A stretch of DNA of 64,000 nucleotides. Source: Sporosarcina koreensis. Its GTDB lineage: Bacteria > Bacillota > Bacilli > Bacillales_A > Planococcaceae. The position numbers and the translations under genes are program-made. The notes under the pieces were generated by a model. It did no database searches. It was not told the DNA's origin and saw only the letters and a program-made list of their open reading frames with translations. Numbering within the stretch: position 1 is the stretch's first letter; each line of letters opens with the position of its first letter. This document shows positions 42,367 through 61,737 of the stretch, one piece after another. The stretch covers positions 189,774 to 253,773 of the forward strand of contig NZ_LN651337.1 in NCBI RefSeq assembly GCF_000826145.2. The letters run 5' to 3'.

Positions 42367-42509
42367 CGCTCCATTCTGCCGGCTAAGCGATCCATTCACC
42401 CGGTTAACCGTTCATTTTGACTGGCGAAGCGATCCATTCCCCAGGCTCCATTCCGCTGCCCGACCGCTCCATTCCCGCGGCAAAACAGCCGAGCCAAACC
42501 CTCTCCATT
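42367..42509 (+). repeat. Short-motif periodic array 1 (CG(C/A)TCCATT units)
   Basis: Seven copies of CG(C/A/T)TCCATT or close variants start at 42367, 42388, 42409, 42430, 42444, 42465 and 42501. Four intervals are exactly 21 bp; one is 14 (a loss of 7) and one 36. The intervening sequence is not conserved. Read on the other strand the unit is AATGG-A(G/T)CG. It lies directly after the pheST terminator, between converging genes. Confidence 0.8.
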
Positions 42510-42556
42510 GCGCGATCAATAGAGACTCGTCAAATTAAAACCGAGATTGAATGGTG

Positions 42557-42582
42557 GGCTCCGCTGCGCTTCGCCTTTTCTG
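42557..42582 (+). repeat. Short repeat E shared with the segment at 61778
   Basis: GGCTCCGCTGCGCT-T-CGC followed by CTTTTCTGT is nearly repeated at 61778 (GGCTCCGCTGCGCT-C-CGC, ATTTCCTGT). Both copies sit beside a periodic array. Vocabulary resembles the minus strand of repeat copy A (CGCTGCGCTTCCTG), so it may be a remnant of that family. Confidence 0.5.
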
Positions 42583-42623
42583 TTGGTGAGCAGCAGGGCA
42601 GGAAGTGTCCATTGCTAGGGGAG

Positions 42624-42774
42624 CGCTCAAGAAGGGGCCGGAACGCTCAAGAGACGGGCAGAAACGATCAAGTTTCCGTCGAAACGCTCAAGCAACATAG
42701 GAAACGCTCAAGCAAGCAGCAAGTCGCTCAAGTGGGTCACTCACGCGCTCAAGCATACCTTACAAGCGCTCAAG
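42624..42774 (+). repeat. Short-motif periodic array 2 (CGCTCAAG units)
   Basis: Eight copies of CGCTCAAG (one CGATCAAG) start at 42624, 42644, 42665, 42685, 42705, 42725, 42746 and 42767, so every interval is 20 or 21 bp. The 12-13 nt between cores differ, apart from a frequent GAAA just before the core. On the other strand the unit is CTTGAGCG. It ends about 20 bp before the rnhC terminator. Confidence 0.85.
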
Positions 42775-42792
42775 CCCCCGACATAATCCCCG

Positions 42793-42824
42793 AAAAAACC
42801 CGCGCGGGCGATCGTCACCCGCGC
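42793..42824 (-). terminator. rnhC terminator
   Basis: On the minus strand GCGCGGGTGA pairs with CGCCCGCGCGGG-type sequence, followed by TTTTTT. The stem includes the last rnhC codons. Confidence 0.7.
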
Positions 42825-43756
42825 TTCTTCGCCGCCAGCACCGCCGCTTTCTTCGCATTGGCAAAGTGCCATTTCGTCATCGACTTCAAAAACGGCTCAC
42901 CTTTCGCCAGCAAAATAGCCGCAGCCGTTTCATCCACCTTCTTCCCGGCGCCTTTCGGCAGCGTGCGGCCGGAGAGCCCGCTCAAGCGGTCCATTTCTTC
43001 CAGGAACGCGACCCGGGCGATGATCGACGCTGCCGCCACCGCGACGTGCAGGCCTTCCGCTTTCGTTGCGAACAACACCTTCTCCCGCACGATCTCCGGC
43101 TCGGCTTTCAAATGGTTGTAGTACACACCGCGCTCCGCGAACTGGTCGATGAGGATGCAGTCCGGGTGCTCGCCGTCCAGTTTGCGCAGCACGTGGCGGA
43201 TCGCCTGGTTGTGGAGGAGAGCCTTAATCTTCCCTTGCGACCAGCCTTTCTGCTGGACGGTATTATATTTCTCATTTTTCAGCGTCAGCACGCTGTACGT
43301 GAGCGCCTTCTTCAGATCCGGCGCAATCGTACGCATGTACGGATCGGTCAGCTGCTTAGAGTCCTTGACGCCGAGCTCTTCGACAAGCGCGATCTGATCG
43401 GCGCGCACGTAGCAGGCGCAGACGGTCACCGGGCCGAAGAAATCACCTGTACCCGTTTCATCCGAGCCGATGACCGACAGCGAGCTGAGATTCTCCGGCA
43501 GCGCATCCGCATGCCGGGCCGGTTTCTTCGCATGTCCGGGAACCGGCGCAGCGGAATCTTCCCACTTCGCCGCCTCCGCAGCAGCACCGCCGCCCTGGAA
43601 CAGCACCTTGCCCGACTTATAGGCCGTGATCGACGCATCCGCCGTCTTCGCCGCAAACACCACCCCCGGCGCTTTGCGCGTCACCTTATCGGATTGATAA
43701 TACGCTTGCAGCTCCTTCATCCGAGCTGCATCCAGCAACACTACATTATTCGACAT
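42815..43756 (-). CDS. rnhC: Ribonuclease HIII
   Basis: 313 aa. Cleaves RNA in RNA-DNA hybrids. N-terminal TBP-like substrate-binding domain (residues 1-90), then the type 2 RNase H core: IGSDETGTGDFFGPVTVCA near 97-115 (catalytic Asp, Glu) and PDCILIDQFAE near 203 (Asp). The final segment GAGKKVDETAAAILLAKGEPFLKSMTKWHFAN is typical. It converges on pheST and is divergent from zapA; order matches B. subtilis, with orientation reversed relative to pheST. Confidence 0.93.
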   Translation of the reverse strand: MSNNVVLLDAARMKELQAYYQSDKVTRKAPGVVFAAKTADASITAYKSGKVLFQGGGAAAEAAKWEDSAAPVPGHAKKPARHADALPENLSSLSVIGSDETGTGDFFGPVTVCACYVRADQIALVEELGVKDSKQLTDPYMRTIAPDLKKALTYSVLTLKNEKYNTVQQKGWSQGKIKALLHNQAIRHVLRKLDGEHPDCILIDQFAERGVYYNHLKAEPEIVREKVLFATKAEGLHVAVAAASIIARVAFLEEMDRLSGLSGRTLPKGAGKKVDETAAAILLAKGEPFLKSMTKWHFANAKKAAVLAAKKRG

Positions 43757-43769
43757 ATTTATATTCTCC

Positions 43770-43786
43770 TTTCAACGATGTTGAAA
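43770..43786 (-). promoter_or_regulatory. Palindrome between rnhC -10 and ribosome site
   Basis: TTTCAAC-GAT-GTTGAAA is a perfect 7+3+7 palindrome. On the minus strand it directly follows a TATAAT and directly precedes AAAGGAG of rnhC, the position of an operator or of a 5' UTR hairpin. Confidence 0.5.
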
Positions 43787-43812
43787 TTATACTTACTTAA
43801 CTGACGATGCCA

Positions 43813-44001
43813 GTTGATTGTAGTGCAGGGTGGCGACTCCTGGGCAGCCTAAGACGCCGCGTCCTGCGGCAACGGCTGCATGACCAGCGTCCTGTTGGCC
43901 CGGGATCAGCGAAGGAAGCAACCTAAGTTCGCGGCACCGTGCCGCAACGGTTGAATGACCTGCATCCTGCAGGCCCGCGTCCGCCCGGAACGCAGATCAA
44001 C
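43813..44001 (+). repeat. Interspersed MITE-like repeat, copy B
   Basis: 189 bp from GTTGATTG to GATCAAC (inverted ends GTTGAT/ATCAAC). First 100 bp match the minus strand of copy C closely (GGCGACTCC, GGGCAGCCTAAGACGCCG, GTCCTGCGGCAACGGCTGCA, CCTGTTGGCCC). The inner part contains a second, diverged copy of its own GCGGCAACGG-type segment. No credible ORF. It lies between the rnhC and zapA promoters. Confidence 0.75.
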
Positions 44002-44106
44002 TTTGTCCAACTTGACTTCAGTTCCGTAACAAACACCAGACTTCCATTCTTCCGCATCCGCCCGCCGAACGCAAGCACAAAAATAACGGACAGACACCCC
44101 CTTTGT

Positions 44107-44135
44107 TCACAAATATTCCGCTTTCATGGTATGAT
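44107..44135 (+). promoter_or_regulatory. zapA promoter
   Basis: TTCACA (44107-44112), 17-bp spacer, TATGAT (44130-44135). Confidence 0.55.
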
Positions 44136-44168
44136 GGACTTCATAGTTTTGGGCAGGAGGTTATGACA

Positions 44169-44429
44169 GTGGAAGAAGGAGAAAAGACACGCATCACGGT
44201 CGACATCTACGGACAGACCTATACGATCGTCGGCTCGGACACGGCTGCCCACGTTCGCCAGGTGGCATCGCTGGTCGATGACCGTATGCGGGAGCTGCGC
44301 GCGCGGAATCCGTATCTCGATACGACCAAAGTCGCTGTACTGACAGCTGTCAACAGTGTACATGACTATTTGAAACTGCAAACTGAGAAAGAACTGCTGG
44401 AACAAGAATTGAAAAAGTTGAAGGGTTGA
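44169..44429 (+). CDS. zapA: Cell division protein ZapA
   Basis: 86 aa from GTG 44169. Cross-links FtsZ filaments at mid-cell. N-terminal [34 protein letters not shown] and the C-terminal coiled coil ([26 protein letters not shown]) match Bacillus ZapA (YshA). GTG is preferred because AGGAGG (44155-44160) is 8 bp away, against 2 bp for ATG 44163, and the protein then aligns with B. subtilis ZapA at its start. Confidence 0.9.
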
Positions 44430-44438
44430 CGGCTGCTC

Positions 44439-44978
44439 ATGTTAGATATACTCATACTATTCCTGCTGCTCGGGGGTCTCATCACCGGGTTCCGCAGAGG
44501 CCTGCTCGTGCAGGTGCTTCATATGACCGGATTCATCATTTCATTCATCGTCGCATTCGCCTATTACAAACAGCTTGCCGAGAAGTTTGTCCTCTGGATC
44601 CCGTATCCGGGAGTGACGGCCGAGTCGAAGCTCACGTGGGCGTTCGGGGAACTGGATCTCGACCAGACGTTCTATCGTCTGCTCGCGTTCATCCTGATCT
44701 TCTTCGCAGTGAAGTTCGTGCTGCAGCTGATCGTCTCGATGTTCGATTTCCTCAAATACTTGCCGGTGCTCGGCTTCATCTCCCGTTTTTTCGGGGCGGC
44801 ACTCGGATTTGTCGAATTCTACGTGATCATCCTGCTGCTCGTGGGTGTACTGGCGCTGCTGCCGGTCGACTTCATCCAGAAGCTGGTGAGTTCGTCGCTG
44901 CTGGCGAAGACCATGTTCGAACACACACCGTTGCTGTCCAATGCGGTGCAAAACTGGTGGTACGTCTATACGAAATAA
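44439..44978 (+). CDS. CvpA-family membrane protein (YshB-like)
   Basis: 179 aa with four hydrophobic segments. The N-terminus MLDILILFLLLGGLITGFRRGLLVQVLH is the CvpA family pattern. Role unclear; E. coli CvpA affects colicin V production and envelope integrity. Ten bp after zapA, same operon, conserved order. A hairpin terminator follows. Confidence 0.85.
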   Translation: MLDILILFLLLGGLITGFRRGLLVQVLHMTGFIISFIVAFAYYKQLAEKFVLWIPYPGVTAESKLTWAFGELDLDQTFYRLLAFILIFFAVKFVLQLIVSMFDFLKYLPVLGFISRFFGAALGFVEFYVIILLLVGVLALLPVDFIQKLVSSSLLAKTMFEHTPLLSNAVQNWWYVYTK

Positions 44979-44986
44979 TCTGGATC

Positions 44987-45018
44987 AGCTTCCCTCCCGT
45001 GCGGCGGGAAGCTTTTGT
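44987..45018 (+). terminator. zapA-cvpA terminator
   Basis: AGCTTCCC pairs with GGGAAGCT, inner CCG/CGG, then TTTTGTT. It may allow read-through into polX. Confidence 0.65.
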
Positions 45019-45054
45019 TCCGTCCGGGTACAGACAGTCAAAGGGGGATGCATT

Positions 45055-46761
45055 GTGAATAAGAAAGTGATCATACAAACTCTTGAACGTATCGCACTCT
45101 ATATGGAACTGCTCGGGGAGAACCCGTTCAAAGTGTCGGCATTCCGCAAGGCGGCCGGAGTGCTTGAGACGGACCCGCGCAGTCTCGCTGAAATGGACGA
45201 CATCCTGACGCTCAAAGGCATCGGAAAAGGGACCGGTGCCGTCATCGTGGACCTTCTTGCGAAAGGGAAGTCCGATTTGCTGGATGAACTGCAGGAAACC
45301 GTGCCGGCGGGGATGATTCCGCTGCTCGATATCCCGGGCCTCGGCGGCAAACGGATCGCAAAGCTGCATAAGGCGCTCGGCATCGACTCCATCGAATCGC
45401 TGAAGGAAGCATGCGAAACGAACAAAGTGAGCGAACTGCCTGGGTTCGGCAAGAAGACCGAAGAGAAGTTCCTGCACGAAATCGAACAGCTGTCGGAACG
45501 GAAGACGTCCTTCCCGCTCTGGCAGATGGAAGGGCTCGTCGCGTCCGTCGAGCCGGTGCTCGATGGCATCGGGGAGATCAGCAAATATTCCGTCGCCGGC
45601 AGCTACCGCCGGACGGCCGAACAGAGCAGCGACATGGATTTCATCCTCGTGACGGACACGCCCGGTGCCGTCCGGGAACAGCTTCTTGAACAGCTGCCGG
45701 TCCGCGAGACGATTGCAGCGGGTGACGCCAAACTCTCCGTGACACTCGATCTCGAAGAAGTGATCGATGTGGATTTCCGTTTCGTCACGGACGCCCAGTA
45801 TGCGAGCGCGCTCCATCATTTCACCGGATCGAAAGAGCATAATGTCGCCATGCGGCAGCTTGCGAAGTCACGGGGGGAGAAGATCAGTGAGTACGGCGTC
45901 GAGCAGGAGGACGGTTCCGTGCTGACGTTCGGATCCGAAGAAGACTTTTTCGCCCATTTCGGCCTGCCGTTCATCCCGCCCAACATGCGCCAGGACGGCC
46001 GCGAAATCGAGCGGGCGGACGAGCTCGGCGGACTGGTCACGCTCCGTGACATCCGCGGCGACTTCCATATGCATACGACCGCCTCGGACGGCGGCTATTC
46101 GATCCGCGAGATGGCGGACGCCTGCCGTGCGAAAGGCTACACGCATATGGTGATCACCGACCACTCGCACTATTTGAAAGTGGCGAACGGCCTGACACCG
46201 GAACGGCTGCTCGATCAGCTGAAAGAAATCAGGGAAATCAACGAAGAATACCCGGACATCGAAATCTTCAGCGGGACGGAAATGGATATCCTGCCGGACG
46301 GGACGCTCGATTTCGACGATGACGTGCTGTCGCAGCTCGACTTCGTCATCGCCTCGATCCACTCGAGTTTCAGCCAGCCGCAGGAGAAGATCATGGAGCG
46401 CCTCCATGCGGCCATAAAAAATCCGCATGTCGATATGGTCGCCCATCCGACAGGGCGCCTGATCGGCAAACGTCCCGGCTATGAGCCGGACGTGCCGCAG
46501 CTCATCGAATGGGCGGCCGAGTATGGAAAGATATTGGAACTGAATGCGAGCCCGCACCGGCTCGATCTGAACAAAGACTACTTGGAACTCGCCCAGTCGA
46601 AGGGCGTTCCGATTGCCATAAACACCGACGCCCATGCAACCGGCCAGCTGGATATCATGGCGATCGGCGTCGCCTACGCCCAGAAAGCGTGGCTGAAAAA
46701 AGACACCGTCGTCAATACGTGGCCGCTCGACCGGTTTAAACGGGAGATCGTCGATAAGTGA
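45055..46761 (+). CDS. polX: DNA polymerase/3'-5' exonuclease PolX
   Basis: 568-aa family X polymerase with a PHP nuclease, acting in gap repair. N-terminal HhH region (LTLKGIGKGTGAVIVDLL near 48), a second HhH (ELPGFGKKTEEKFLHEI), pol-beta palm GSYRRTAEQSSDMDFILV with catalytic DxD near 182-199, and C-terminal PHP domain with DFHMHTTASDGGYSIREMADACRAKG near 335 and IATNTDAH-like AINTDAHATGQLD near 520. GTG 45055 has AAAGGGGG upstream. Overlaps or abuts mutS2. Confidence 0.93.
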   Translation: MNKKVIIQTLERIALYMELLGENPFKVSAFRKAAGVLETDPRSLAEMDDILTLKGIGKGTGAVIVDLLAKGKSDLLDELQETVPAGMIPLLDIPGLGGKRIAKLHKALGIDSIESLKEACETNKVSELPGFGKKTEEKFLHEIEQLSERKTSFPLWQMEGLVASVEPVLDGIGEISKYSVAGSYRRTAEQSSDMDFILVTDTPGAVREQLLEQLPVRETIAAGDAKLSVTLDLEEVIDVDFRFVTDAQYASALHHFTGSKEHNVAMRQLAKSRGEKISEYGVEQEDGSVLTFGSEEDFFAHFGLPFIPPNMRQDGREIERADELGGLVTLRDIRGDFHMHTTASDGGYSIREMADACRAKGYTHMVITDHSHYLKVANGLTPERLLDQLKEIREINEEYPDIEIFSGTEMDILPDGTLDFDDDVLSQLDFVIASIHSSFSQPQEKIMERLHAAIKNPHVDMVAHPTGRLIGKRPGYEPDVPQLIEWAAEYGKILELNASPHRLDLNKDYLELAQSKGVPIAINTDAHATGQLDIMAIGVAYAQKAWLKKDTVVNTWPLDRFKREIVDK

Positions 46762-46778
46762 AAGGAAGGGATCCGTCC

Positions 46779-49136
46779 ATGGATTCACGGGTTTACCGAA
46801 CACTCGAATTTGATAAGGTGCTGACACAGGCCGCCGGATATACGACATTCCCGGCAGGCCGGGCAGCACTCGAGAAACTGGTGCCGAGCACCGATTTCGG
46901 AACGGTCGGCACACTGCTGGAAGAGACCGATGAAGGACTCGCCATCCTGCGCGTCCGCGGCAACGTGCCGATGGGCGGCATCACTGACGTCCGGCCGCAT
47001 GCCCGGCGCGCCCAGATCGGCGGTACGCTGAGTGCGCAGGAGCTGATGGAGACATCCTCGACCATCCGCGCAAGCCGGATATTCCGGCAGTTCATCGAAA
47101 GCCTCCAGCAGGAAGAAGAGCTTGACCTGAAGCATTTCCTGGCCATCAAGGAAGCGATGCCGATCATCACAGGGCTCGAACATGAAATCAACAGCGCGAT
47201 CGACGAGAACGGCCGGGTGCTCGACAGCGCATCCAGCGCCCTCCGTTCCGTGCGTCAGAGCCTCCGCATCCAGGAAGGCCGTGTGCGGGAGAAACTCGAG
47301 AGCATCACACGCGGCAGGAACGCAGCGACGATGCTGTCGGACAGCATCATCACGATCCGGAACGACCGGTTCGTCATCCCGGTGAAGTCGGAGTACCGCG
47401 GCCATTATGGCGGAGTCATCCATGATTCCTCCGCATCGGGCCAGACGCTCTACATCGAGCCGGACGCCGTCGTCCAGGCGAACAACGAAATCCGTGCCCT
47501 GAAGTCGAAAGAAAAGGAAGAGATCGAGAAGATCTTGCGGGAACTGTCCGCAAGCGTCCAGGAGCATGCCCATGACCTGTTCATCCTCGTCGACCAGCTC
47601 ATCCGGGTCGATGTCATCCTCGCCAAGGCGAAATACGGGCAGGCGAACCGCTGCACGAAGCCGGACGTCAACAACGATGGCTACCTGAAACTGACGAAAG
47701 CCCGTCACCCGCTGCTGCCGATGGACGAAGCGGTCGCGAATACGATCGAATTTGGCAATGATATCACGACGATCGTCATCACCGGACCGAACACGGGCGG
47801 GAAGACTGTCACATTGAAGACGGTCGGCCTCTGTGTCCTCATGGCACAGGCCGGCCTGCCGATCCCGGTGCTCGACGGCTCGGAGATCGCCGTTTTCGGT
47901 TCGGTTTTCGCCGATATCGGCGACGAACAGTCGATCGAGCAGAGCCTCAGTACGTTTTCGTCGCATATGGTCAACATCGTCGATATCCTGAAGAAATTCG
48001 ATTCGGACTCCCTCATCATCTTCGATGAACTCGGCTCCGGCACCGACCCGCAGGAAGGGGCGGCCCTCGCCATCTCCATTCTGGATGAAGTCCACGGAAC
48101 CGGCGCGAGGGTCATGGCGACGACGCACTACCCGGAACTGAAAGCATACGGCTACAACCGGAAAGGGGTCGCCAATGCAAGTGTCGAGTTCGATATCGAC
48201 ACGCTCAGCCCGACCTACCGGCTGCTGATCGGCGTGCCGGGGCGCAGTAACGCGTTCGAGATCTCGAAACGGCTCGGTCTCGGCGAGCACCTCATCAAAC
48301 GGGCGAAGACGTTCACCGGCACTGATCGCGGCGAAGTCGACTCGATGATCGCGTCACTCGAAGCGAGCCGCGTACAGTCCGAGAAAGACGCCGAAGAGAC
48401 GCACCGGCTGCTCAAAGAGACGGAACTGCTGAAAAAGGAACTCGCCGAAAAACTCGCCGAACAGGAAGAGATGAAAGACCGTCTGACCGAAAAGGCGAAG
48501 GAGAAAGCGAAGCGGATCGTCGATGACGCACGCCGCGAATCGGATGAAGTCATCAAAGACCTGCGTGCGCTCCGTATGACGGCAGGTGCAAACGTCAAAG
48601 AGCATGAACTTATCGAAGCGAGGAAACGGCTGGAAGGCGCTGCTCCGGCCCAGACGAAGAAGCAGGCGCCGAAGGCGAAAGCGGCGCCGCGTCCGCTTCA
48701 GGCAGGCGACGAAGTGAAAGTGCTCAGCTACGGCCAGAAAGGCACGCTCATGGAAAAGGTCTCCGATAAGGAATGGATCGTCCAGATCGGCATCCTGAAG
48801 ATGAAGCTCGACGAATCGGGACTCGAGTACGTCAAGCCGGAGAAAGAAAAGCAGACGAAAGCATCTGCGGCCGTCCGGGGACGTACCGAACATGTCAAAC
48901 TCGAACTCGACCTGCGGGGCGAGCGCTACGAAGACGCAATCCGCAGGACAGAGAAATACCTGGACGACGCACTGTTGTCGAACTATCATCAGGTCTCCAT
49001 CATCCACGGCAAAGGGACCGGCGCGCTCCGGCAGGGGATTCAGCAGATGCTGAAGAAGCATTCCCGCGTCAAAAGCTACCGGTTCGGAGACGCCGGGGAA
49101 GGCGGCCATGGCGTAACGGTCGTCGAACTGAAATAA
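46779..49136 (+). CDS. mutS2: Endonuclease MutS2
   Basis: 785 aa, the same length as B. subtilis MutSB. It lacks the mismatch-recognition domain; the MutS-type core and ATPase carry Walker A ITGPNTGGKTVTLKT near residue 328 and Walker B LIIFDELGSGTDPQEGAA near 408. A coiled coil follows (ETHRLLKETELLKKELAEKL). The C-terminal Smr domain (LDLRGERYEDAIRRTEKYLDD, then HGKGTGALRQGIQ) near 710-770 is the nuclease. Linked to anti-recombination and to resolving collided ribosomes. ATG 46779 with AGGAAGG 8 bp upstream is preferred to GTG 46758. Confidence 0.93.
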   Translation: MDSRVYRTLEFDKVLTQAAGYTTFPAGRAALEKLVPSTDFGTVGTLLEETDEGLAILRVRGNVPMGGITDVRPHARRAQIGGTLSAQELMETSSTIRASRIFRQFIESLQQEEELDLKHFLAIKEAMPIITGLEHEINSAIDENGRVLDSASSALRSVRQSLRIQEGRVREKLESITRGRNAATMLSDSIITIRNDRFVIPVKSEYRGHYGGVIHDSSASGQTLYIEPDAVVQANNEIRALKSKEKEEIEKILRELSASVQEHAHDLFILVDQLIRVDVILAKAKYGQANRCTKPDVNNDGYLKLTKARHPLLPMDEAVANTIEFGNDITTIVITGPNTGGKTVTLKTVGLCVLMAQAGLPIPVLDGSEIAVFGSVFADIGDEQSIEQSLSTFSSHMVNIVDILKKFDSDSLIIFDELGSGTDPQEGAALAISILDEVHGTGARVMATTHYPELKAYGYNRKGVANASVEFDIDTLSPTYRLLIGVPGRSNAFEISKRLGLGEHLIKRAKTFTGTDRGEVDSMIASLEASRVQSEKDAEETHRLLKETELLKKELAEKLAEQEEMKDRLTEKAKEKAKRIVDDARRESDEVIKDLRALRMTAGANVKEHELIEARKRLEGAAPAQTKKQAPKAKAAPRPLQAGDEVKVLSYGQKGTLMEKVSDKEWIVQIGILKMKLDESGLEYVKPEKEKQTKASAAVRGRTEHVKLELDLRGERYEDAIRRTEKYLDDALLSNYHQVSIIHGKGTGALRQGIQQMLKKHSRVKSYRFGDAGEGGHGVTVVELK

Positions 49137-49212
49137 TTCCTCTGAAAGTGAAACTTTTTGCAGACCCATCCGTAACCGATAGGATATCATCGTAAAAAAG
49201 GGGTCTGCACAC

Positions 49213-49626
49213 ATGGCAACTACCGGATTCTGGAGCAACCCGCTCGTCGAGACAGCCGGCTATTTCAGCACCGTCGTCCTCTGTCTCGTCGTAGCGATGG
49301 TCATCTTTGAACTCGTGACCAAATACCGCAACTGGCAGGAAATCAAGAACGGGAATCTCGCGGTCGCCTTCGCGACAGGAGGCAAGATATTCGGCGTGGC
49401 GAACATCTTCCGCTATTCCATCGAGCAGCACAATACGCTGCCGCAGATGATCGGCTGGGGATTGTACGGTTTCGCCCTTCTCGTCTTCGCCTATGTCCTG
49501 TTCGAATTCCTGACGCCGATGTTCCATGTAGACGACGAAATCGAAAAGGATAACCGGTCCGTCGGGTTCATATCGATGATCATCTCGGTCGGCCTGTCAT
49601 TCGTCATCGGTGCAAGCATTTCGTAA
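49213..49626 (+). CDS. yshE: DUF350 membrane protein (YshE-like)
   Basis: 137 aa with four hydrophobic segments (starting near residues 17, 50, 80 and 117). Motifs such as AVAFATGGKIFGVANIFRYSIEQ fit DUF350. Role unknown. Follows mutS2 as in B. subtilis. An AAAAAGGGG site precedes ATG 49213. Confidence 0.82.
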   Translation: MATTGFWSNPLVETAGYFSTVVLCLVVAMVIFELVTKYRNWQEIKNGNLAVAFATGGKIFGVANIFRYSIEQHNTLPQMIGWGLYGFALLVFAYVLFEFLTPMFHVDDEIEKDNRSVGFISMIISVGLSFVIGASIS

Positions 49627-49654
49627 AACATCAGTACAGTGGAGACGATACTAA

Positions 49655-49741
49655 ATGGAAAAACTCTCGAAGATCCTGCTTGTCCTATGCATAGTCTTCA
49701 TCGTGATCGGCATCATATGGATGGTCCGGCAGACTTCCTGA
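49655..49741 (+). CDS. Possible 28-residue single-helix membrane protein
   Basis: Frame from ATG 49655 to TGA 49741. MEKLSKIL then a helix LLVLCIVFIVIGIIWMVR and a short tail RQTS. A GGAG site lies about 11 bp upstream. It fits between yshE and the next terminator, whose stem starts inside its last codons. No homologue recognised. It could be a genuine small membrane protein or chance. Confidence 0.5.
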   Translation: MEKLSKILLVLCIVFIVIGIIWMVRQTS

Positions 49742-49769
49742 CGCATTCGCGTCGGACGTCTGCCTTTTC
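49728..49769 (+). terminator. Terminator after mutS2-yshE
   Basis: GGCAGAC (49728-49734) pairs with GTCTGCC (49758-49764), inner CGC/GCG, then TTTTCTTTT. Confidence 0.75.
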
Positions 49770-49785
49770 TTTTGGAAATCTGCAA

Positions 49786-49814
49786 TTGTAAACGCATACA
49801 ACTTTCGTTATACT
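49786..49814 (+). promoter_or_regulatory. lcfA promoter
   Basis: TTGTAA (49786-49791), 17-bp spacer, perfect TATACT (49809-49814). Downstream GAATATTC and ATGAATAT are only weakly like FadR half-sites. Confidence 0.7.
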
Positions 49815-49866
49815 TAGGAAAGAAAGAATATTCTATGAATATACTGTCGAAAAGGAGGCTGTTCAC

Positions 49867-53985: not shown

Positions 53986-54969
53986 ATGTCAAAAAATGTG
54001 TTAGTACTGGGCGAAACTCGCGAAGGCGAATTGCGGAACGTATCCTTTGAAGCCATAGCGGCGGCGAAGCAGATTTCAGGAGGCGGCACGATCACAGGCG
54101 TACTCATCGGGGAATCAGTGGAGAACCTTGCGCAGGACATGATCCAGCACGGGGCGGACCGTGTCGTCACTGTTGAGAATGCGGACTTGAAGCAGTATAC
54201 ATCCGACGGCTTCGGCCAGGCGTTCATGGCTGTCTATGAACAGGAAAAGCCGGAAGCCATCGTCATGGGGCATACAGCACTCGGGAAGGACCTCTCCCCG
54301 AAGATCGCAGCCAAACTCGGCTCGGGACTCATTTCGGATGTTACAACGATCGAAGGGGAAGGCGACGATGCGGAATTCATCCGCCCGATCTACTCCGGAA
54401 AAGCATTCGAGAAGGTCAAGAACAAAGAAGGACTGCTGTTCGTGACGATCCGTCCGAACAACATCGAACCGCTTGAGAAGGACGACAGCCGCTCTGGTGA
54501 CGTGTCATCCGTATCTGCGGACATCACGAACCTCCGCTCCGTCATCGCGGACGTCGTACGGAAAGCATCCGAAGGGGTCGACCTCTCCGAAGCGAAAGTC
54601 ATCGTAGCAGGCGGACGCGGCGTCAAGAGCGAAGACGGTTTTAAACCGCTCGAAGAACTCGCGGATCTGCTCGGCGGCGCAGTCGGCGCATCCCGCGGTG
54701 CGTGTGATGCGGACTACTGTGATTACTCGCTCCAGATCGGCCAGACAGGGAAAGTCGTCACGCCTGACCTGTACATCGCGGTCGGCATCTCCGGCGCGAT
54801 CCAGCACATGGCGGGTATGTCGAACTCCAAGATCATCGTCGCCATCAACAAAGATCCGGAAGCCAACATCTTCAAAGTGGCGGACTATGGAATCGTCGGC
54901 GACCTGTTCGACGTCATGCCGATCCTGATCGACGAAGTGAAGAAACTCAAAGCGGGTCAGACTGCATAA
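53986..54969 (+). CDS. etfA: Electron transfer flavoprotein alpha subunit
   Basis: 327 aa. FAD-binding C-terminal domain clear: [15 protein letters not shown] near 205, [44 protein letters not shown] near 232 and [23 protein letters not shown] near 285. Forms a heterodimer with EtfB; passes electrons to the quinone pool. Ends the fad cluster at a strong terminator. Confidence 0.95.
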
Positions 54970-54980
54970 TCACATTTCGG

Positions 54981-55021
54981 CAGGGCCTTCCATTTGTACT
55001 TGAATGGAAGGCCCTGTTTTA
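54981..55021 (+). terminator. fad-etf operon terminator
   Basis: CAGGGCCTTCCATT pairs with AATGGAAGGCCCTG, then TTTTA. Confidence 0.9.
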
Positions 55022-55149
55022 CCGGAGCGGATCCTGCAAGCGATCCATCCCGCAGGTGCTGTAAGCGCTATAAGCAGATTTTTCGCCTCGGGTGAATGTG
55101 CATGATATACTTGTTCCAGAGTTGTTACCTACAAAGGAGGAATTATCCA

Positions 55150-55464
55150 ATGGCTATTCTGAACGCTACTGATGCAGACTTTACTGAAAAGACAAGTGAA
55201 GGTGTCGTACTCGTTGACTTCTGGGCACCATGGTGCGGGCCTTGTAAGATGATCGCTCCGGTTCTTGAAGAATTGGACGGCGAAATCGAAGGCAAAGCGC
55301 AGATCGTGAAAGTGAACGTGGATGACAACCAGGGAACTGCAAGCAAATTCGGCATCATGTCGATCCCGACACTCCTCGTCATGAAAGACGGCGAAACTGT
55401 CGACAAAGTAGTCGGCTTCCGTCCGAAAGAGGAACTTGCAAAATTGGTTGACCAGCACGCATAA
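55150..55464 (+). CDS. trxA: Thioredoxin
   Basis: 104 aa. General disulfide reductant. Active site FWAPWCGPCKM at residues 26-36 and the conserved cis-Pro in MSIPTLLV near 73. AAAGGAGG upstream of ATG 55150. A TATACT at 55106-55111 may be its -10. Position between etfA and uvrC matches B. subtilis. Confidence 0.97.
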   Translation: MAILNATDADFTEKTSEGVVLVDFWAPWCGPCKMIAPVLEELDGEIEGKAQIVKVNVDDNQGTASKFGIMSIPTLLVMKDGETVDKVVGFRPKEELAKLVDQHA

Positions 55465-55479
55465 GCTTACTATCTCAAG

Positions 55480-55516
55480 ACCGGGTCCCTGTTCTCAGCG
55501 GAACCCGGTTTTTTTG
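55480..55516 (+). terminator. trxA terminator
   Basis: ACCGGGT pairs with ACCCGGT and is followed by seven Ts. Confidence 0.85.
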
Positions 55517-55533
55517 GCAGGTGACAGATAACC

Positions 55534-57336
55534 ATGAATGAATTGATCCAGCAGAAGCTCGCCATCCTTCCCGATGATCCCGGGTGCTATCTCATGAAAG
55601 ACAGGCAGGGCACCATCATCTACGTCGGTAAGGCGAAAGTGCTGAAAAACCGGGTCCGCAGCTATTTCACCGGATCCCATGACGCGAAAACCCAGCGGCT
55701 CGTCTCCGAAATCGAGGACTTCGAGTTCATCATCACGTCGTCCAACATCGAGGCGCTCATCCTGGAGCTGAACCTCATCAAGCAGTACGATCCGAAATAC
55801 AACATCATGCTGAAGGACGATAAGACGTATCCGTATCTGAAGCTGACCGCGGAACGCCATCCGAAACTGATCGTCACGCGGATCGTCAAAAAGGACAAAG
55901 GCCGCTATTTCGGTCCGTATCCGAACGTCACGGCAGCGACCGAGACGAAGAAACTGCTCGACCGGCTGTATCCGTACCGGAAATGCCATACGCTGCCGGA
56001 CCGGGTCTGCCTGTATTACCATATGGGCCAGTGCCTGGCGCCGTGCGTCTACGACGTATCGAAGGAGACGTACAAGGAGATGACCGACGACATCGCCCGG
56101 TTCCTGAACGGCGGCTATAAAGAAATGAAGAAAGAGCTCACCGTGAAGATGAATGCCGCTGCCGAGAACCTCGAATTCGAGCGGGCGACGGAGTACCGCG
56201 ACCAGATCACGAACATCGAAACGGTCATGGAGAAGCAGACGATGACGATGCACGATTTCAAGGACCGTGACATCTTCGGCTACGCCGTCGAAAAGGGCTG
56301 GATGTGCGTGCAGGTGTTCTTCGTGCGTCAGGGCAAGCTGATTGAGCGCGACGTCTCGCTGTTCCCGATGTACCAGGATCCGGAAGAGGAACTGCTGACG
56401 TTCATCGGCCAGTTCTACAGCAAAGCCGCGCACATCAAACCGAGCGAAGTGCTGCTGCCGCAGGATACCGACAAAGATCTTGTCGAGCAGCTGCTCGATG
56501 TGCACGCGTACATTCCGCAGCGGGGCAAGAAGAAGGATCTCGTGCAGCTCGCCAACAAGAACGCAGCGATTTCCCTGCGGCAGAAATTCCAGCTGCTCGA
56601 CCGGCAGGAGGAACGGACAGTCGGCGCCTGCGAGGAACTCGGCGATGCGATGAACATCTCCATCCCGCTGCGCATCGAAGCGTTCGACAACTCGCACACG
56701 CACGGCGTCGAGCCGGTATCGGCAATGGTATCGTTCGTTGACGGCAAGCCGAACCGGAAGGACTACCGGAAATACAAGACGAAGACGGCCGCAGCGCATG
56801 ATGACTACGGGGCGATGCGGGAAGTGATCCGGCGCCGGTACAGCCGCGTGCTGAAGGACGATCTCCCGCTGCCTGACCTGATCGTCATCGATGGCGGGAA
56901 AGGGCAGATGAACATCGCCCGCGAAGTGATCGAAGACGAGCTCGGCCTGTCGATCCCGATCGCCGGTCTCGCCAAGGACGAGAAACACCAGACCGCGAAC
57001 CTGCTGTACGGGTCGCCACCGGAACTGATCCCGCTGAAGCGCTCGAGCGAAGCGTTCTACCTGCTGCAGCGCATCCAGGACGAAGTGCACCGGTTCGCCA
57101 TCACGTTCCACCGGCAGCGGCGCCAGGCCGGCTCGCTCGTGTCCTCGCTCGATGGACTGCCCGGCGTCGGGCCGAAACGGAAGCAGAAGCTGCTCAAGCA
57201 CTTCGGCTCCGTCAAGAAAATTAAGGCCGCCACCACCGACCAGCTCATCGAAGCCGGCCTCCCGAAGTCCGTCGCCGAATCGGTGACAGAATATTTCACG
57301 GAGCAGGCGAAAGCGAAAGAGGAAGCGCAAGACTGA
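55534..57336 (+). CDS. uvrC: Excinuclease ABC subunit C
   Basis: 600 aa. Makes both incisions in nucleotide excision repair. N-terminal GIY-YIG nuclease ([32 protein letters not shown], residues 9-40), Cys-rich segment [21 protein letters not shown] near 153, UVR domain near 205, RNase H-like C-terminal nuclease ([33 protein letters not shown]) near 387-460, and tandem HhH end ([18 protein letters not shown]). Complete. lysC, next in B. subtilis, is absent. Confidence 0.96.
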
Positions 57337-57337
57337 C

Positions 57338-57364
57338 AACGGACCTGTGGCGGGTCCGTTTTTT
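57338..57364 (+). terminator. uvrC terminator
   Basis: AACGGACC pairs with GGTCCGTT around a 7-nt loop, then TTTT. Confidence 0.85.
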
Positions 57365-57390
57365 GTGCTGTGACGGGGGAGGGGCATGAG

Positions 57391-57537
57391 GAATTGAGCG
57401 ATTATGGTGAGGAAATGATCGGTCAGCACCAGCAATTGATCGCTTAGCGGTACTATATGATCGGTCAGCTGCAAGAATGGAGCGGTTCGCCGACTGAAAC
57501 GAGCGGTTCGCCGCTTGAATGGAGCGGTCCGTATCCT
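57391..57537 (+). repeat. Short-motif periodic array 3 (seven exact 21-bp units)
   Basis: Seven consecutive 21-bp units start at 57391, 57412, 57433, 57454, 57475, 57496 and 57517. Each has GAA or a variant, then TGA(G/T)CG or TGGAGCG, then (G)GT(T/C). The first four carry TTGAGCG/ATGATCG/TTGATCG; the last three (T/A)GGAGCG or ACGAGCG followed by GTTCGCCG-like sequence. It sits exactly between the facing terminators of uvrC and yslB. Confidence 0.88.
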
Positions 57538-57560
57538 GCAGCACTGCAACACCCGAACAC

Positions 57561-57592
57561 AAAAAACCGGAGAGGCCGCAAGCCCCTCCGGT
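57561..57592 (-). terminator. yslB terminator
   Basis: On the minus strand ACCGGAGGGGC pairs with GCCTCTCCGGT (one mismatch) around TTGCG, followed by TTTTTT. Confidence 0.85.
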
Positions 57593-57599
57593 CCATCCA

Positions 57600-58016
57600 T
57601 CAGTCACCTAAGTTATACGTCTCATCCCAGCGGACCTGCAAAACGATGCGGCCCGTGTCGGCGTCACGCGATCCATAACACTCGGTCAGGCAGCCGTTCG
57701 CGATCTGATGCTGCTCGGCGAGGAATCCGGATTCCAGGCTGAACGCATCCTCGGTCGCCGGCGACTCCAGCCGATCCGTCAATTCATAATCGATTTCCTC
57801 TTTGCCGGATGACACGCGCACGAGCGTCCCCCAGCCGGCTTCCTTGAAAAATTGGGGGACTTCATCCACCGAAAAAACAGGGAACTTGCGGGCGATCTCT
57901 TTGCCGGCCCAATACAGAATATCATCTTCATGCTTACCGAGGATATCCGGGATCACATGATCTCTCAGCAGCTCATAACCGAAGCGGGTCGGCTGTCCAG
58001 TGGTCTCGTTTGCCAA
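57600..58016 (-). CDS. yslB: DUF2507 protein (YslB-like)
   Basis: 138 aa. RFGYELLRDHVIPDILGKHEDDILYWAGKEIARKFP followed by QFFKEAGWGTLVRV, and ESGFLAEQHQIANGCLTECYGS near 97-118, fit the YslB/DUF2507 family, related to the V4R heme/ligand-binding fold. Function unknown. TTG 58016 is taken as start; AAAGGG is about 11 bp upstream. Neighbour of sdhC as in B. subtilis, divergently transcribed. Confidence 0.85.
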   Translation of the reverse strand: MANETTGQPTRFGYELLRDHVIPDILGKHEDDILYWAGKEIARKFPVFSVDEVPQFFKEAGWGTLVRVSSGKEEIDYELTDRLESPATEDAFSLESGFLAEQHQIANGCLTECYGSRDADTGRIVLQVRWDETYNLGD

Positions 58017-58104
58017 AACGCAAGCATCCCTTTCATCGTAATCTATTTACTATTTTAGAATAGCCTCAACATGCGGAAAAGACGCACCAAATAAGCGAGT
58101 CACC

Positions 58105-58133
58105 TTGACCTACCCAAAATGGAAGAGTACAAT
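58105..58133 (+). promoter_or_regulatory. sdhCAB promoter
   Basis: TTGACC (58105-58110), 17-bp spacer, TACAAT (58128-58133); gives a leader of about 105 nt before sdhC. Confidence 0.7.
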
Positions 58134-58243
58134 GTACATGTTATTATATTGTAACACGAAGAGACGGACCGTCAATCATTCGTTCGCAAACGTACGGCGA
58201 TGTACACACAATCCGGCTCATATATTAAGGGAGGGTAAATCAC

Positions 58244-58852
58244 TTGGTGAGAGAATCAGAGTTCTATTGGCGACGCCTGCATTCACTGCTCGGGATCATT
58301 CCGATCGGCCTGTTCGTGACGCAGCACTTGATCATCAACCATTTCGCAACAAGAGGTGTTGAATCATTCAACACAGCGGCACATTTCATTGAAAACCTGC
58401 CGTTCATCTATTTCCTCGAATGGTTCGTCATCTACATACCGCTCATGTTCCACGCGTTTTACGGAGTCTATCTTGCGTTCACTTCGAAAAACAACGTGCA
58501 GCGCTACGGCACGTTCCGTAACTGGATGTTCATGCTCCAGCGGATTTCAGGTGTATTCCTGGTCATCTTCATCGCATGGCACATCTACGAGACACGTATC
58601 CAGAAACTGTTCGGTACGGAAGTCAACTTCGACATGATGGCTGACATCCTGAGCAACCCGTTCATGATCGTGTTCTATGCACTTGGAATCATCGCAGCAA
58701 CGTTCCACCTGGCGAACGGTATCTGGTCATTCCTCGTTACTTGGGGACTTGCACAGTCACCGCGTTCCCAGCGTATCGTCTCTTATGTAACTATGATCTT
58801 TTTCGTTGTTCTGACGGTTATCGGTCTGCGTGCACTGTTCGCATTCGTCTAA
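58244..58852 (+). CDS. sdhC: Succinate dehydrogenase cytochrome b558 subunit
   Basis: 202-aa membrane anchor with five hydrophobic segments and several His in helices (RRLHSLLGIIPIGLFVTQHLIINHFATR; FHAFYGVYLAF; FIAWHIYETR; FHLANGIWSFLVTWG) that fit the two-heme Bacillus type. Menaquinone reduction site. TTG 58244 (GGGAGG 8 bp upstream) or GTG 58247 is the start. First gene of sdhCAB. Confidence 0.94.
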   Translation: MVRESEFYWRRLHSLLGIIPIGLFVTQHLIINHFATRGVESFNTAAHFIENLPFIYFLEWFVIYIPLMFHAFYGVYLAFTSKNNVQRYGTFRNWMFMLQRISGVFLVIFIAWHIYETRIQKLFGTEVNFDMMADILSNPFMIVFYALGIIAATFHLANGIWSFLVTWGLAQSPRSQRIVSYVTMIFFVVLTVIGLRALFAFV

Positions 58853-58895
58853 GAACAATTTTGTAATCATGTAAATTTTGAGGAGTGAAACAACT

Positions 58896-60644
58896 ATGTC
58901 AAAAGGCAGAGTGATTGTCGTAGGCGGCGGTCTCGCCGGACTTATGGCAACCATCAAGGCATCAGAAGAAGGCGTCGGAGTCGACTTGTTTTCCCTCGTA
59001 CCTGTTAAACGTTCCCACTCCGTCTGTGCCCAGGGCGGTATCAACGGTGCGGTGAATACGAAAGGGGAAGGCGACTCCCCATGGATCCACTTTGACGATA
59101 CGGTATATGGCGGGGACTTCCTGGCCAACCAGCCTCCGGTAAAAGCGATGGCGGACGCGGCACCGAGTATCATCCACCTGTTCGACCGGATGGGCGTCAT
59201 GTTCAACCGGACACCGGAAGGCCTTCTTGACTTCCGCCGTTTCGGCGGAACGATGCACCACCGTACGGCATATGCCGGCGCGACGACAGGCCAGCAGCTC
59301 CTGTATGCATTGGACGAGCAGGTCCGTGCACAGGAAGTCGCAGGTCTTGTGCAGAAGTATGAACACTGGGAATTCCTTGGTGTGGTACTTGACGAAGAAG
59401 GCATCTGCCGCGGAATCCGTGCGCAGGACCTCCGGACAATGGAAATCAAAGCATTCCCTGCGGATGCGGTCATCATGGCGACCGGCGGACCGGGAATCAT
59501 CTTCGGGAAGTCGACGAACTCGGTCATCAATACAGGATCGGCCGCTTCGATCGTCTATCAGCAGGGTGCGAAATATGCGAACGGCGAATTCATCCAAATC
59601 CACCCGACTGCGATTCCGGGAGACGACAAACTGCGTCTCATGAGTGAATCCGCACGTGGGGAAGGCGGACGGATCTGGACGTACAAAGACGGCAAGCCTT
59701 GGTACTTCCTCGAAGAGAAATACCCGGCATACGGTAACCTCGTGCCGCGGGATATCGCGACACGTGAGATCTTCGACGTCTGTGTGAACCAGAAGCTCGG
59801 CATCAACGGCGAGAACATGGTCTATCTCGACCTGTCCCATAAAGATCCGCATGAGCTTGACGTCAAACTCGGCGGCATCATCGAAATCTACGAGAAGTTC
59901 ACAGGCGAAGATCCGCGCAAAGTGCCGATGAAGATCTTCCCGGCAGTCCATTACTCAATGGGCGGACTGTGGGTCGACTACGAACAGCACACGTCCATCC
60001 CAGGATTGTTTGCGGCGGGTGAATGTGACTACTCACAGCATGGCGGAAACCGTCTCGGTGCGAACTCCCTCCTTTCTGCGGTATACGGCGGTATGCTCGC
60101 AGGACCGGAAGCCGTCAAGTACATGAAAGGTCTCAAGACATCTGCGGATGATCTGCCTTCCAAGATCTTCGACGACGCGGTCAAAGAAGAGCAGGACAAG
60201 TGGGATAAAATCATCAGCATGAAGGGGACCGAGAATGCATATGTCATTCACCGGGAACTTGGCGAGCTGATGACGGAGAACGTGACCGTTGTCCGGTACA
60301 ACGATCGTCTCGAGGCGACAGACAAGAAGATCCAGGAGCTCCTCGAGCGCTGGGAAAACATCGATATGACAGATACGCAGCAGTGGTCCAACCAAGGCGC
60401 AACGTTTACGCGTCAGCTGAAAAACATGCTATACTTGGCACGGGTCATCACACTCGGTGCCCTGAAACGTGACGAAAGCCGCGGCGCGCATTACAAGCCG
60501 GACTTCCCGGAACGTGACGACGAGAACTTCCTGAAAACGACGATTGCCCAGTTCGACGGAAAGTCCGCACCGATCATCTCTTACGAAGAGGTCGATACAT
60601 CCCTGATCCCGCCTCGTAAGCGCGACTATACGTCAGCCCACTAA
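58896..60644 (+). CDS. sdhA: Succinate dehydrogenase flavoprotein subunit
   Basis: 582 aa. Oxidises succinate to fumarate with covalent FAD. VIVVGGGLAGLMATIKASE (residues 6-24), flavin-linking His in KRSHSVCAQGGINGAVN near 41, active-site Arg in SESARGEGGRIWT near 252 and HYSMGGLWVDYEQHTSIPGLFAAGECD near 355. ATG 58896 follows GAGGAGTG. Middle gene of sdhCAB. Confidence 0.96.
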   Translation: MSKGRVIVVGGGLAGLMATIKASEEGVGVDLFSLVPVKRSHSVCAQGGINGAVNTKGEGDSPWIHFDDTVYGGDFLANQPPVKAMADAAPSIIHLFDRMGVMFNRTPEGLLDFRRFGGTMHHRTAYAGATTGQQLLYALDEQVRAQEVAGLVQKYEHWEFLGVVLDEEGICRGIRAQDLRTMEIKAFPADAVIMATGGPGIIFGKSTNSVINTGSAASIVYQQGAKYANGEFIQIHPTAIPGDDKLRLMSESARGEGGRIWTYKDGKPWYFLEEKYPAYGNLVPRDIATREIFDVCVNQKLGINGENMVYLDLSHKDPHELDVKLGGIIEIYEKFTGEDPRKVPMKIFPAVHYSMGGLWVDYEQHTSIPGLFAAGECDYSQHGGNRLGANSLLSAVYGGMLAGPEAVKYMKGLKTSADDLPSKIFDDAVKEEQDKWDKIISMKGTENAYVIHRELGELMTENVTVVRYNDRLEATDKKIQELLERWENIDMTDTQQWSNQGATFTRQLKNMLYLARVITLGALKRDESRGAHYKPDFPERDDENFLKTTIAQFDGKSAPIISYEEVDTSLIPPRKRDYTSAH

Positions 60645-60697
60645 GTGCCCGGCGTATCGCTGCACGATTATTCCGCATCGAAAGGAGACTGACGGAA

Positions 60698-61498
60698 ATG
60701 AGTGAACAACAAACCGCTGTCGCAGAAAAGACAGCACCCGGTAAAACAGTTATTTTCGAAATCCAGCGTCAGGATACACCTGAATCCGCGCCATACATGG
60801 AGTCTTTCGAAATCCCATATAAGCCTAACATGAACGTCATTTCCGCATTGATGGAAATCCGACGTAACCCGGTCAATTCGAAGGGCGAGAAAACTACACC
60901 GATCAACTGGGACATGAACTGTCTCGAGGAAGTATGCGGTGCCTGCTCGATGGTCATCAACGGCCGTCCGCGCCAGTCGTGTACAGCCCTCGTCGATCAG
61001 CTCACACAGCCGATCAAACTGGAGCCGATGCGCACATTCCCGGTTGTCCGTGACTTGATGGTCGACCGTGAAGGCATGTTCGACTCCCTCAAGAAAATCA
61101 AAGCATGGGTTCCGATTGACGGAACGTACGATCTCGGTGAAGGTCCCCGTATGCCGGAGCGCAAGCGCCAGTGGGCATACGAGCTGTCGAAATGCATGAC
61201 ATGCGGCGTCTGCCTCGAGGCATGCCCGAACGTCAACGACTCGACAAACTTCATGGGGCCGTTCGCGATTTCGCAAGTCCGCCTGTTCAACACGCATCCA
61301 ACTGGCGCGAAGAACAAAGATGAGCGTCTCGCAGCGTTGATGACAGACGGAGGCCTCGCCGAGTGCGGGAACTCCCAGAACTGTGTCGTGGCTTGCCCGA
61401 AAGGTATTCCATTGACGACGTCCATCGCATCCATGAACCGTGCAACAACGGTTCAGATGTTCAAGAACTTCTTCGGAAGCGACCATATGGTGGACTGA
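60698..61498 (+). CDS. sdhB: Succinate dehydrogenase iron-sulfur subunit
   Basis: 266 aa. Three clusters: 2Fe-2S from CLEEVCGACSMVINGRPRQSC near residues 75-95, 4Fe-4S from CMTCGVCLEACP near 167, and 3Fe-4S/4Fe-4S from CGNSQNCVVACPKGIP near 223. An N-terminal extension of about 20 residues is unusual but modest. AAAGGAG upstream. Ends the operon. Confidence 0.96.
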   Translation: MSEQQTAVAEKTAPGKTVIFEIQRQDTPESAPYMESFEIPYKPNMNVISALMEIRRNPVNSKGEKTTPINWDMNCLEEVCGACSMVINGRPRQSCTALVDQLTQPIKLEPMRTFPVVRDLMVDREGMFDSLKKIKAWVPIDGTYDLGEGPRMPERKRQWAYELSKCMTCGVCLEACPNVNDSTNFMGPFAISQVRLFNTHPTGAKNKDERLAALMTDGGLAECGNSQNCVVACPKGIPLTTSIASMNRATTVQMFKNFFGSDHMVD

Positions 61499-61511
61499 TC
61501 CCCGCCAGTCC

Positions 61512-61556
61512 AACACCCGGATTGCCAGCTGTTCGCTGGCCGTCCGGGTGTTTTTT
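61512..61556 (+). terminator. sdhCAB terminator
   Basis: AACACCCGG pairs with CCGGGTGTT, with inner GCCAGC/GCTGGC, then T run. Confidence 0.9.
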
Positions 61557-61585
61557 CTTTCGTTGAATGGGGGCAAGGCGGCCTG

Positions 61586-61737
61586 CGCTCATAAACCGGG
61601 TCATTCCGCTCATAAAAAAGAGTTTTTGCTCATAAATCCCGGAATCTGCTCATAAAAAGCGATTACCGCTCATAAATCTCCAGTAGTGATCATTAAACTA
61701 AAATAGCGCTCATAAACTTGTCCAAACCGCTCATAAA
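61586..61737 (+). repeat. Short-motif periodic array 4 (CGCTCATAAA units)
   Basis: Eight copies of (C/T)GCTCATAAA (one TGATCATTAA) start at 61586, 61607, 61627, 61647, 61667, 61687, 61707 and 61728; all intervals are 20 or 21 bp. Spacer bases are unrelated. Other-strand unit: TTTATGAGCG. It starts about 30 bp after the sdh terminator. Confidence 0.87.

Follow-up and report, generated by a model that had tools for sequence, protein, structure and literature searches.

Iterons of plasmids and phages are direct repeats of about 17-22 bp that share a conserved core, are phased with the DNA helix and are bound cooperatively by protein. They lie at one replication origin, beside a Rep gene. Here we describe a family of short-repeat arrays in Sporosarcina koreensis and its relatives, starting from a 64,000-nucleotide stretch of contig NZ_LN651337.1 (positions 189,774 to 253,773; this whole stretch is called the window, and the genome it comes from the window genome). 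Like iterons, these arrays are direct repeats that keep a core and follow the helix, here at a phase of about two turns. Unlike iterons, they are dispersed over the chromosome, lie mostly at operon ends and fall into several core classes. Beside the window arrays lie pheT, rnhC, uvrC, sdhB, a thioesterase-like gene and another that NCBIfam does not match, but no initiator gene or origin. Matches to a strict pattern (three GAGCG at gaps of 14-17 bases) are spread over at least four contigs of the window genome.

The TAACTGA heptamer repeats of Beggiatoaceae, Cyanobacteria and Bacteroidetes are dispersed intergenic direct repeats that are patchy across species; their 7-bp units are reported to have no spacers and, in the Guaymas genome, to lie mostly just upstream of start codons (PMC4679880). 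The arrays resemble them in being dispersed intergenic sets of direct repeats of one core, patchy across species. They differ in their 20-21 bp units, variable spacers and location mostly at gene 3' ends. Repetitive extragenic palindromes (REPs) and the bacterial interspersed mosaic elements (BIMEs) built from them are reported to be abundant, dispersed, composite, associated with RAYT proteins and linked to the lagging strand, and REPs alternate in orientation within BIMEs (PMC2817692, PMC8266576, PMC6006769). Our arrays are likewise abundant, dispersed, composite and replication-linked, and the window genome encodes a RAYT-like protein. They are unlike REPs in that their cores (CTTGAGCG, AATGGAGCG, TTTATGAGCG) are non-palindromic, occupy one strand per array and are spaced at two turns.

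Tandem interspaced guide RNA (TIGR) arrays consist of dual-repeat units with 8-12 nt repeats and mostly 9-nt spacers (up to 12), yield 36-nt guide RNAs and adjoin a gene for a Nop-domain protein, and their repeats vary between loci (PMC12045711). Both systems alternate short repeats with short spacers of near-constant length and vary their repeats between loci. A pair of our units (40-42 bp) falls inside these TIGR ranges, yet the core does not change within a pair, and units differ in length by one base. The Nop domain (PF01798) was not found in six of seven array-bearing genomes, the window genome included; the seventh, G127, has one match above cut-off, near none of the arrays listed for that genome. 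We rejected identity with TIGR-Tas systems on this ground, no Nop-domain protein having been found beside the arrays listed for these seven genomes. A search of the open-access literature, a coverage that leaves subscription papers mostly outside, found no description of such arrays, and no match to a described family emerged from Rfam, that literature or the other libraries used, in line with the original prediction. The arrays lack a defining feature of each of the TIGR, REP/BIME and TAACTGA repeats and may represent an undescribed system, a view that an existing description elsewhere would overturn. We also looked for phage-borne arrays by scanning viral contigs with the class B pattern (defined below), which picked out 30 stretches. 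This class B scan yielded no drifting 20/21-bp arrays; viral chains of at least four GAKCG were 21-22-bp or 7-bp simple repeats or lay inside open frames.

The window contains four arrays:

42367..42509, minus strand: array 1, class A (AATGGAKCG), degenerate, between the convergent pheT and rnhC
42624..42774, minus strand: array 2, eight class B units (CTTGAGCG) spaced 20-21 bp, directly beyond the rnhC terminator
57391..57537, plus strand: array 3, mixed class A (TTGAGCG, ATGATCG, ATGGAGCG), 7 units, between uvrC and a convergent gene
61586..61737, minus strand: array 4, eight class C units (TTTATGAGCG) spaced 20-21 bp, beyond sdhB

Array 2 has eight TTGAKCG at steps of 21, 21, 20, 20, 20, 21 and 20 bp, and array 3 has seven GAKCG cores with a core-to-core step of 21 throughout. 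Array 4 has eight ATGAKC(G/A) at steps of 21, 20, 20, 20, 20, 20 and 21, three of the eight ending in A and so not strict GAKCG. The longest GAKCG chain expected by chance was 3 (60 order-3 Markov copies of the window). With skipped units allowed in 100 Markov copies, the class B and C motifs reached a chance maximum of 2, compared with 8 and 8 observed, and the loose motif GAKC(A/G) reached 5, compared with 9. The unit counts and spacing originally given for arrays 2, 3 and 4 were borne out, beyond Markov chance. The class A motif was observed 3 times in a chain against a chance maximum of 2, which makes array 1 weak taken alone. An array is present there, but the seven units first ascribed to it were generous: it has five clear AATGGAKC(G/C) units at steps of 21, 14, 42 and 21, with a phase break at the 14-bp step.

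What unifies the family is the rhythm and not the GAKCG core. The original prediction had taken a shared GAKCG core as the common element, and this did not hold, as relatives keep the 20-21 bp rhythm with other cores. We scanned intergenic DNA for chains of at least four identical 6-mers, taking each pair of steps between 11-12 and 44-45 bp in turn and covering 456 kb of the window genome, 320 kb of S. thermotolerans (G250), 314 kb of S. luteola MER 47 (G251) and 460 kb of G122. In these four genomes chains occurred only at 19-20, 20-21 and 21-22 bp and at the doubles, 39-40 to 42-43. Five Markov copies of the window-genome stretches gave no chains at the five steps tested (14, 17, 20, 24 and 30), and one 50-kb stretch of E. 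coli gave none. The scan also found 8 and 1 clusters at 20-21 bp in G140 and G076, which have no GAGCG match. In DNA called coding, G140 and G205 hold some clusters at 17-19, 26-28, 35-37 or 41-43 bp.

Individual steps are tightly held too. Among 495 GAGCG-to-GAGCG steps of 15-27 bp, taken from a set that includes both the window genome and G229 (one species), 194 were 20 and 286 were 21, with 7 at 19 and 0 at 22. In the 21 most drifted arrays, whose neighbouring spacers are less than 35% identical, 129 of 130 single steps were 20 or 21. Both sets were picked by a chain step of 19-22 or its double, and the unbiased period scan is therefore the real control. Together these counts uphold the earlier claim that spacing stays at 20-21 bp while spacers drift (480 of the 495 steps). 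Neighbouring spacers within an array often resemble one another. Arrays with a shorter mean step are AT-richer (Spearman -0.42). Within arrays, 20-bp steps carry AT-richer spacers by about the effect of one extra G/C base, and we claim nothing from this about base composition as a cause of step length. Phase was not kept cumulatively along arrays to a significant degree (P = 0.053). At L068, L121 and G251:C21 ~421,837-422,128, two spacer types alternate with a super-period of 40-42 bp.

The core word itself varies widely. Cores include TTTATGAGCG, CTTGAGCG, AATGGAGCG, TAAACGAGCG, AAYGGACC, AAYGAGAAC, GGTGATAA, GTGTGCMAC, CTNACAGTT and TGCAAG, and CGCGAGTATT occurs in arrays of another genus of the family. 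Several core classes coexist per genome, and several of them are found at more than one locus with different spacers. In class C units of the window genome, T at -4 and -3 carries 1.8-1.9 bits and positions -10 to -6 carry 0.1-0.5; the core letters G, A and C reach 2 bits because the search fixed them, which it did not do for -4 and -3. AGCGG, which is the Chi sequence of Bacillus subtilis, is frequent in class A and C units, and the arrays could on that account be Chi-like recombination sites or DNA-uptake sites. We regard this as very improbable: class B units are mostly GAGCGT or GAGCGC, other genomes use unrelated cores, and the arrays are oriented opposite to what is expected of Chi.

Arrays persist at orthologous loci. 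Between pheT and rnhC, the counterpart of array 2 in genome G229 (98% identity) consists of 9 units instead of 8. In G254 (78% identity) the order array B, module M, array A is kept, with the same cores and mostly different spacers. In four further genomes (G260, G190, G213 and G217) the arrays at this locus are built on a different core (GAACGRGCGGGTT type). An array was detected on the rnhC side in 8 of the 12 best-matching loci and on the uvrC side in 4 of 12, with a detector that misses array 3 itself. Conservation in relatives, which the original prediction had proposed as a check, was thus found, both as a shared rhythm and as pheT-rnhC arrays in other species.

Module M is a short oriented repeat, ACAGRAAAKGCGNAGCG-CAGCGGAGCC, often followed by CATTCAATCTTGGTTTTGATT, that adjoins arrays. 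Many regions of the window genome contain two arrays separated by this conserved module. The window has two copies:

42557..42583, minus strand: core of module M (ACAGAAAAGGCGAAGCGCAGCGGAGCC), flanked by arrays 2 and 1 and on the strand of both
61778..61804, minus strand: second copy of module M, upstream of array 4 and on the same strand

Among 19 copies in the window-genome stretches, 16 have an array that was detected no more than 600 bp away and in every case shares their strand; the copy at array 4 counts among the three without one, as the detector required strict GAKCG. Module M is present in stretches of the window genome, G229, G254 and NCCP-2716. As a general part of arrays it was not found in the eight other genome sets searched.

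The arrays of the window lie just beyond terminators. The relevant genes and terminators are:

39882..42293, plus strand: pheT, phenylalanine--tRNA ligase beta subunit (NCBIfam match)
about 42311..42345, plus strand: intrinsic terminator of pheT, read by eye and not in the scan listing
42802..42824, minus strand: stem of the rnhC intrinsic terminator, from the terminator scan
42815..43756, minus strand: rnhC, ribonuclease HIII (NCBIfam match)
55534..57336, plus strand: uvrC (NCBIfam match)
57338..57366, plus strand: uvrC intrinsic terminator (stem 57338-57360 plus T run), from the terminator scan
57564..57594, minus strand: terminator stem of the convergent gene 57600-58016, from the terminator scan
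60698..61498, plus strand: sdhB, succinate dehydrogenase iron-sulfur subunit (NCBIfam match)
about 61512..61558, plus strand: terminator-like hairpin and T run after sdhB, seen by eye and not in the scan listing

The claim that terminators precede the arrays was confirmed by the scan for rnhC, uvrC and the gene facing uvrC, and by eye for pheT and sdhB. As had been stated, three arrays occupy convergent gaps between genes; array 4 is the exception, with co-directional neighbours.

Across the stretches examined, arrays favour convergent regions. Arrays of any core occupied 42 of 102 convergent intergenic regions, 59 of 364 tandem regions and 8 of 130 divergent regions (convergent vs tandem, P = 3e-7; tandem vs divergent, P = 0.004; convergent vs divergent, P = 1e-10). 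These are regions of at least 150 bp between genes called by a simple script, and the counts compare types within stretches that, for the window genome, G250, G251 and G229, were largely chosen for GAGCG arrays; the window genome and G229, one species, are both included. For G122, where 20 of 23 stretches were evenly placed, arrays were found in 1 of 21 convergent, 2 of 80 tandem and 0 of 33 divergent regions. In tandem regions the array was nearer the 3' end of the upstream gene in 45 of 59 cases. GAGCG arrays overlapping a called gene numbered 0 of 42 in the window genome, 0 of 14 in G250 and 2 of 13 in G251. Coding tandem repeats were rejected as an explanation because steps of 20 and 21 are mixed and GAGCG arrays lie nearly all outside called genes.

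The arrays are also oriented. At 40 of 47 loci the GAGCG strand is set opposite to fork movement (P = 1e-6), counted in G229, G122, G250 and one G251 contig and leaving out the window genome. Replichores were assigned visually, using skew and gene strand, after which 0.76-0.84 of coding bases were co-directional. The proportion was 20 of 21 for class B and 17 of 20 in convergent regions alone. Convergent regions lack a common direction of flanking genes, so that the orientation appears to follow replication and not the neighbouring gene.

These data fit best with a phased protein-binding array, one of the options raised in the original prediction: spacing is constant, spacers drift, 20- and 21-bp steps are mixed, and position and orientation are non-random. 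Cores are kept at several loci while spacers differ and length is held to one base, so the simplest explanation is a factor that recognises the core within duplex DNA and requires its sites on one helical face. If duplication were the only process, spacers should be as similar as cores, and we prefer a reading factor for this reason. The core of about 8-12 bp would be the protein site, and the spacer of about 10 bp would only set the distance. Sites two turns apart would face the same side of the helix and could be occupied cooperatively by the protein or proteins that we infer to bind the cores. Placement behind terminators and orientation relative to the fork suggest a polar boundary. An occupied strip may block read-through or head-on (antisense) transcription, or pin supercoils, behind operon terminators. 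The phased sites probably serve as a fork-oriented boundary at operon ends, as judged from DNA sequence. The full proposal, that each array is a strip of phased double-stranded DNA sites for one or more sequence-specific proteins and works as a polar operon-end boundary, is the one we favour, with confidence that falls a little short of even.

Several observations weigh against this proposal. Between the window genome (G000) and G229, for arrays with an ortholog in the fetched stretches, substitutions in cores (17 of 1219) and in spacers (23 of 1339) were not significantly different in frequency (P = 0.53). This comparison gives no evidence of recent purifying selection, and the case rests on deeper divergence: the earlier claim that core and phase are conserved agrees with the cores kept at several loci and in G254, but within the species core and spacer changes show no significant difference. 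No arrays were found by the period scan in the 140, 120 and 80 kb sampled from G066, G021 and G205, and G128 has a single cluster at 29-31 bp and none at 20-21; the system is therefore dispensable, given that some Sporosarcina species lack arrays in the 80-140 kb sampled. DNA called coding in G251 holds five clusters at 20-21 bp. The AAC class of G250 has no orientation bias (4:4). With so many core classes per genome, either a number of binders or a single binder of loose specificity would be required. Finally, 44% of the folded arrays of the window genome have a folding z-score below -2 on a strand.

The folding result bears on the possibility that the arrays act as RNA, binding an RNA-binding protein or giving small RNAs in the manner of TIGR guide arrays. 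The dual-repeat TIGR arrays share with ours a constant unit of an 8-12 nt repeat and a spacer of about 10 nt (PMC12045711). Folding covered 70 of 95 arrays. The 43 arrays of the window genome show an excess of structure (mean z of -0.95 and -1.25 on the two strands), but the 27 of S. thermotolerans G250 show little (-0.19 and -0.14; z below -2 on a strand in 26%). Rfam gave no family on the arrays at gathering scores in the window and seven further stretches. The structured RNA that the original prediction had offered as its other option is thus weakly supported at most. The window arrays lie beyond terminators, their neighbouring spacers are often similar, unlike independent guides, and no Nop domain was found in six of the seven array-bearing genomes, as described above. 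We consider an RNA-level element decidedly improbable.

Composition offers a second reading at the RNA level. RNA made along the fork, as most genes are, would be C-rich and G-poor over the arrays, which could then be rut arrays, that is, back-up Rho-dependent terminators behind operons. The CGCTC strand has a mean C of 0.33 and G of 0.22, with C exceeding G in 83% of 129 arrays and about 3.7 YC per 21 nt, and both position at operon 3' ends and orientation agree with such a role. Rho is not known to require a core of ten bases, or sites whose spacing is exact to the base. The C excess is small in S. luteola NBRC (0.30 vs 0.28) and reversed in Shouchella (0.23 vs 0.31), and Rho is encoded in all 15 genomes tested, with arrays or without. 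Rut arrays are a rather improbable explanation for these reasons. The presence of Rho was also ruled out as a marker of arrays.

A stronger alternative, though one we still judge unlikely, is that the arrays are selfish or mutational repeats, produced by slippage or by a RAYT (HUH transposase) that mobilises single-stranded DNA of the lagging strand, so that fork orientation mirrors the process and not a host function. Units are gained or lost within one species, in array 2 and in others, and a near-identical unit of array plus module M is repeated about 276 bp apart. The tie of orientation to replication is likewise as expected. The RAYT-like protein of the window genome matches NF047646 at 74.7 bits, below the cut-off of 80, and by our reading 10 of 11 array-bearing genomes have a Y1 gene as long as a RAYT gene (a fragment in G140). 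Such genes also occur in 2 of the 4 genomes without arrays in the sampled stretches (G066 and G128), giving 12 of the 15 genomes tested, and the 20-kb stretch around the window genome's own gene contains no array. Array cores lack the palindromic form of REPs. Because slippage duplicates entire units, it should make spacers as uniform as cores, but cores are kept and spacers differ. The RAYT-like Y1 HUH gene stands directly after a YifB/ComM-type ATPase gene (L186 9608-11760; G000:C4 ~1,549,608-1,551,760) and itself occupies G000:C4 ~1,551,158-1,551,760.

The family extends well beyond the window. The window genome (2.91 Mb, 5 contigs) has 58 + 53 = 111 strict GAGCG triplets, compared with 0 for the reversed pattern used as control; the arrays thus exceed chance, a check that the original prediction had proposed. 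Within the family Planococcaceae the strict pattern was found in 128 of 250 sampled genomes. Matches exceed 500 in five genomes that share its genus (G202: 329 + 349), and others of the genus have zero. G251, the genome with the S. luteola MER 47 locus, agrees in all four counts with G211, which is placed in this genus. The reversed control was not empty in G049, G127, G170 and G035 (29-90 matches); in G049 and G127 these matches are arrays with another core. Matches occurred in 87 of 299 genomes of the class sample and in 21 of 149 of the phylum sample, where the window genome is one and the other 20 have 1-4 each. Outside the family, in the class sample, G601 (12 + 18) carries 21-bp arrays, G615 (93 + 0) has 7- and 11-bp simple repeats, and every other genome has at most 8 matches. 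Shouchella and Paraliobacillus also match, among the matches listed for named genomes. In the window genome, G000:C4 ~1,560,000-1,680,000 is array-dense, and on the same contig the strict pattern finds none from ~247 kb to 1.25 Mb.

The phased-site proposal could be extended to the lineage. Planococcaceae may possess a chromosomal marking system of helix-phased strips at operon ends, set against the direction of replication. Its core word would be swapped from one species or class to another with no change of place or rhythm, and it would be read by an array-coating protein family of evolving specificity that bounds transcription. Core classes would then co-evolve with binders of changing specificity. 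We consider this wider proposal possible but less likely than not. If it is true, many intergenic strips per chromosome would be sites of a chromosome-organising or transcription-bounding factor, overlooked because its core word changes between species and the two-turn rhythm is the sole giveaway. That rhythm is a signature that can be searched for in any genome, and arrays could be used as protein bait. The question bears on the insulation of operons and on how head-on collisions between RNA polymerase and the replication fork are avoided.

Some intergenic hairpins were recorded alongside the arrays. Bacillaceae-1 RNA (RF01690) occurs in the window at 43836-43973 (plus strand) and 38689-38752 (minus strand) and in L179 at 3037-3102, with several intergenic copies. 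A link between this RNA and the RAYT-like gene was rejected, there being no Rfam match in the 5 kb around that gene. By eye, hairpins resembling Bacillaceae-1 RNA adjoin some arrays.

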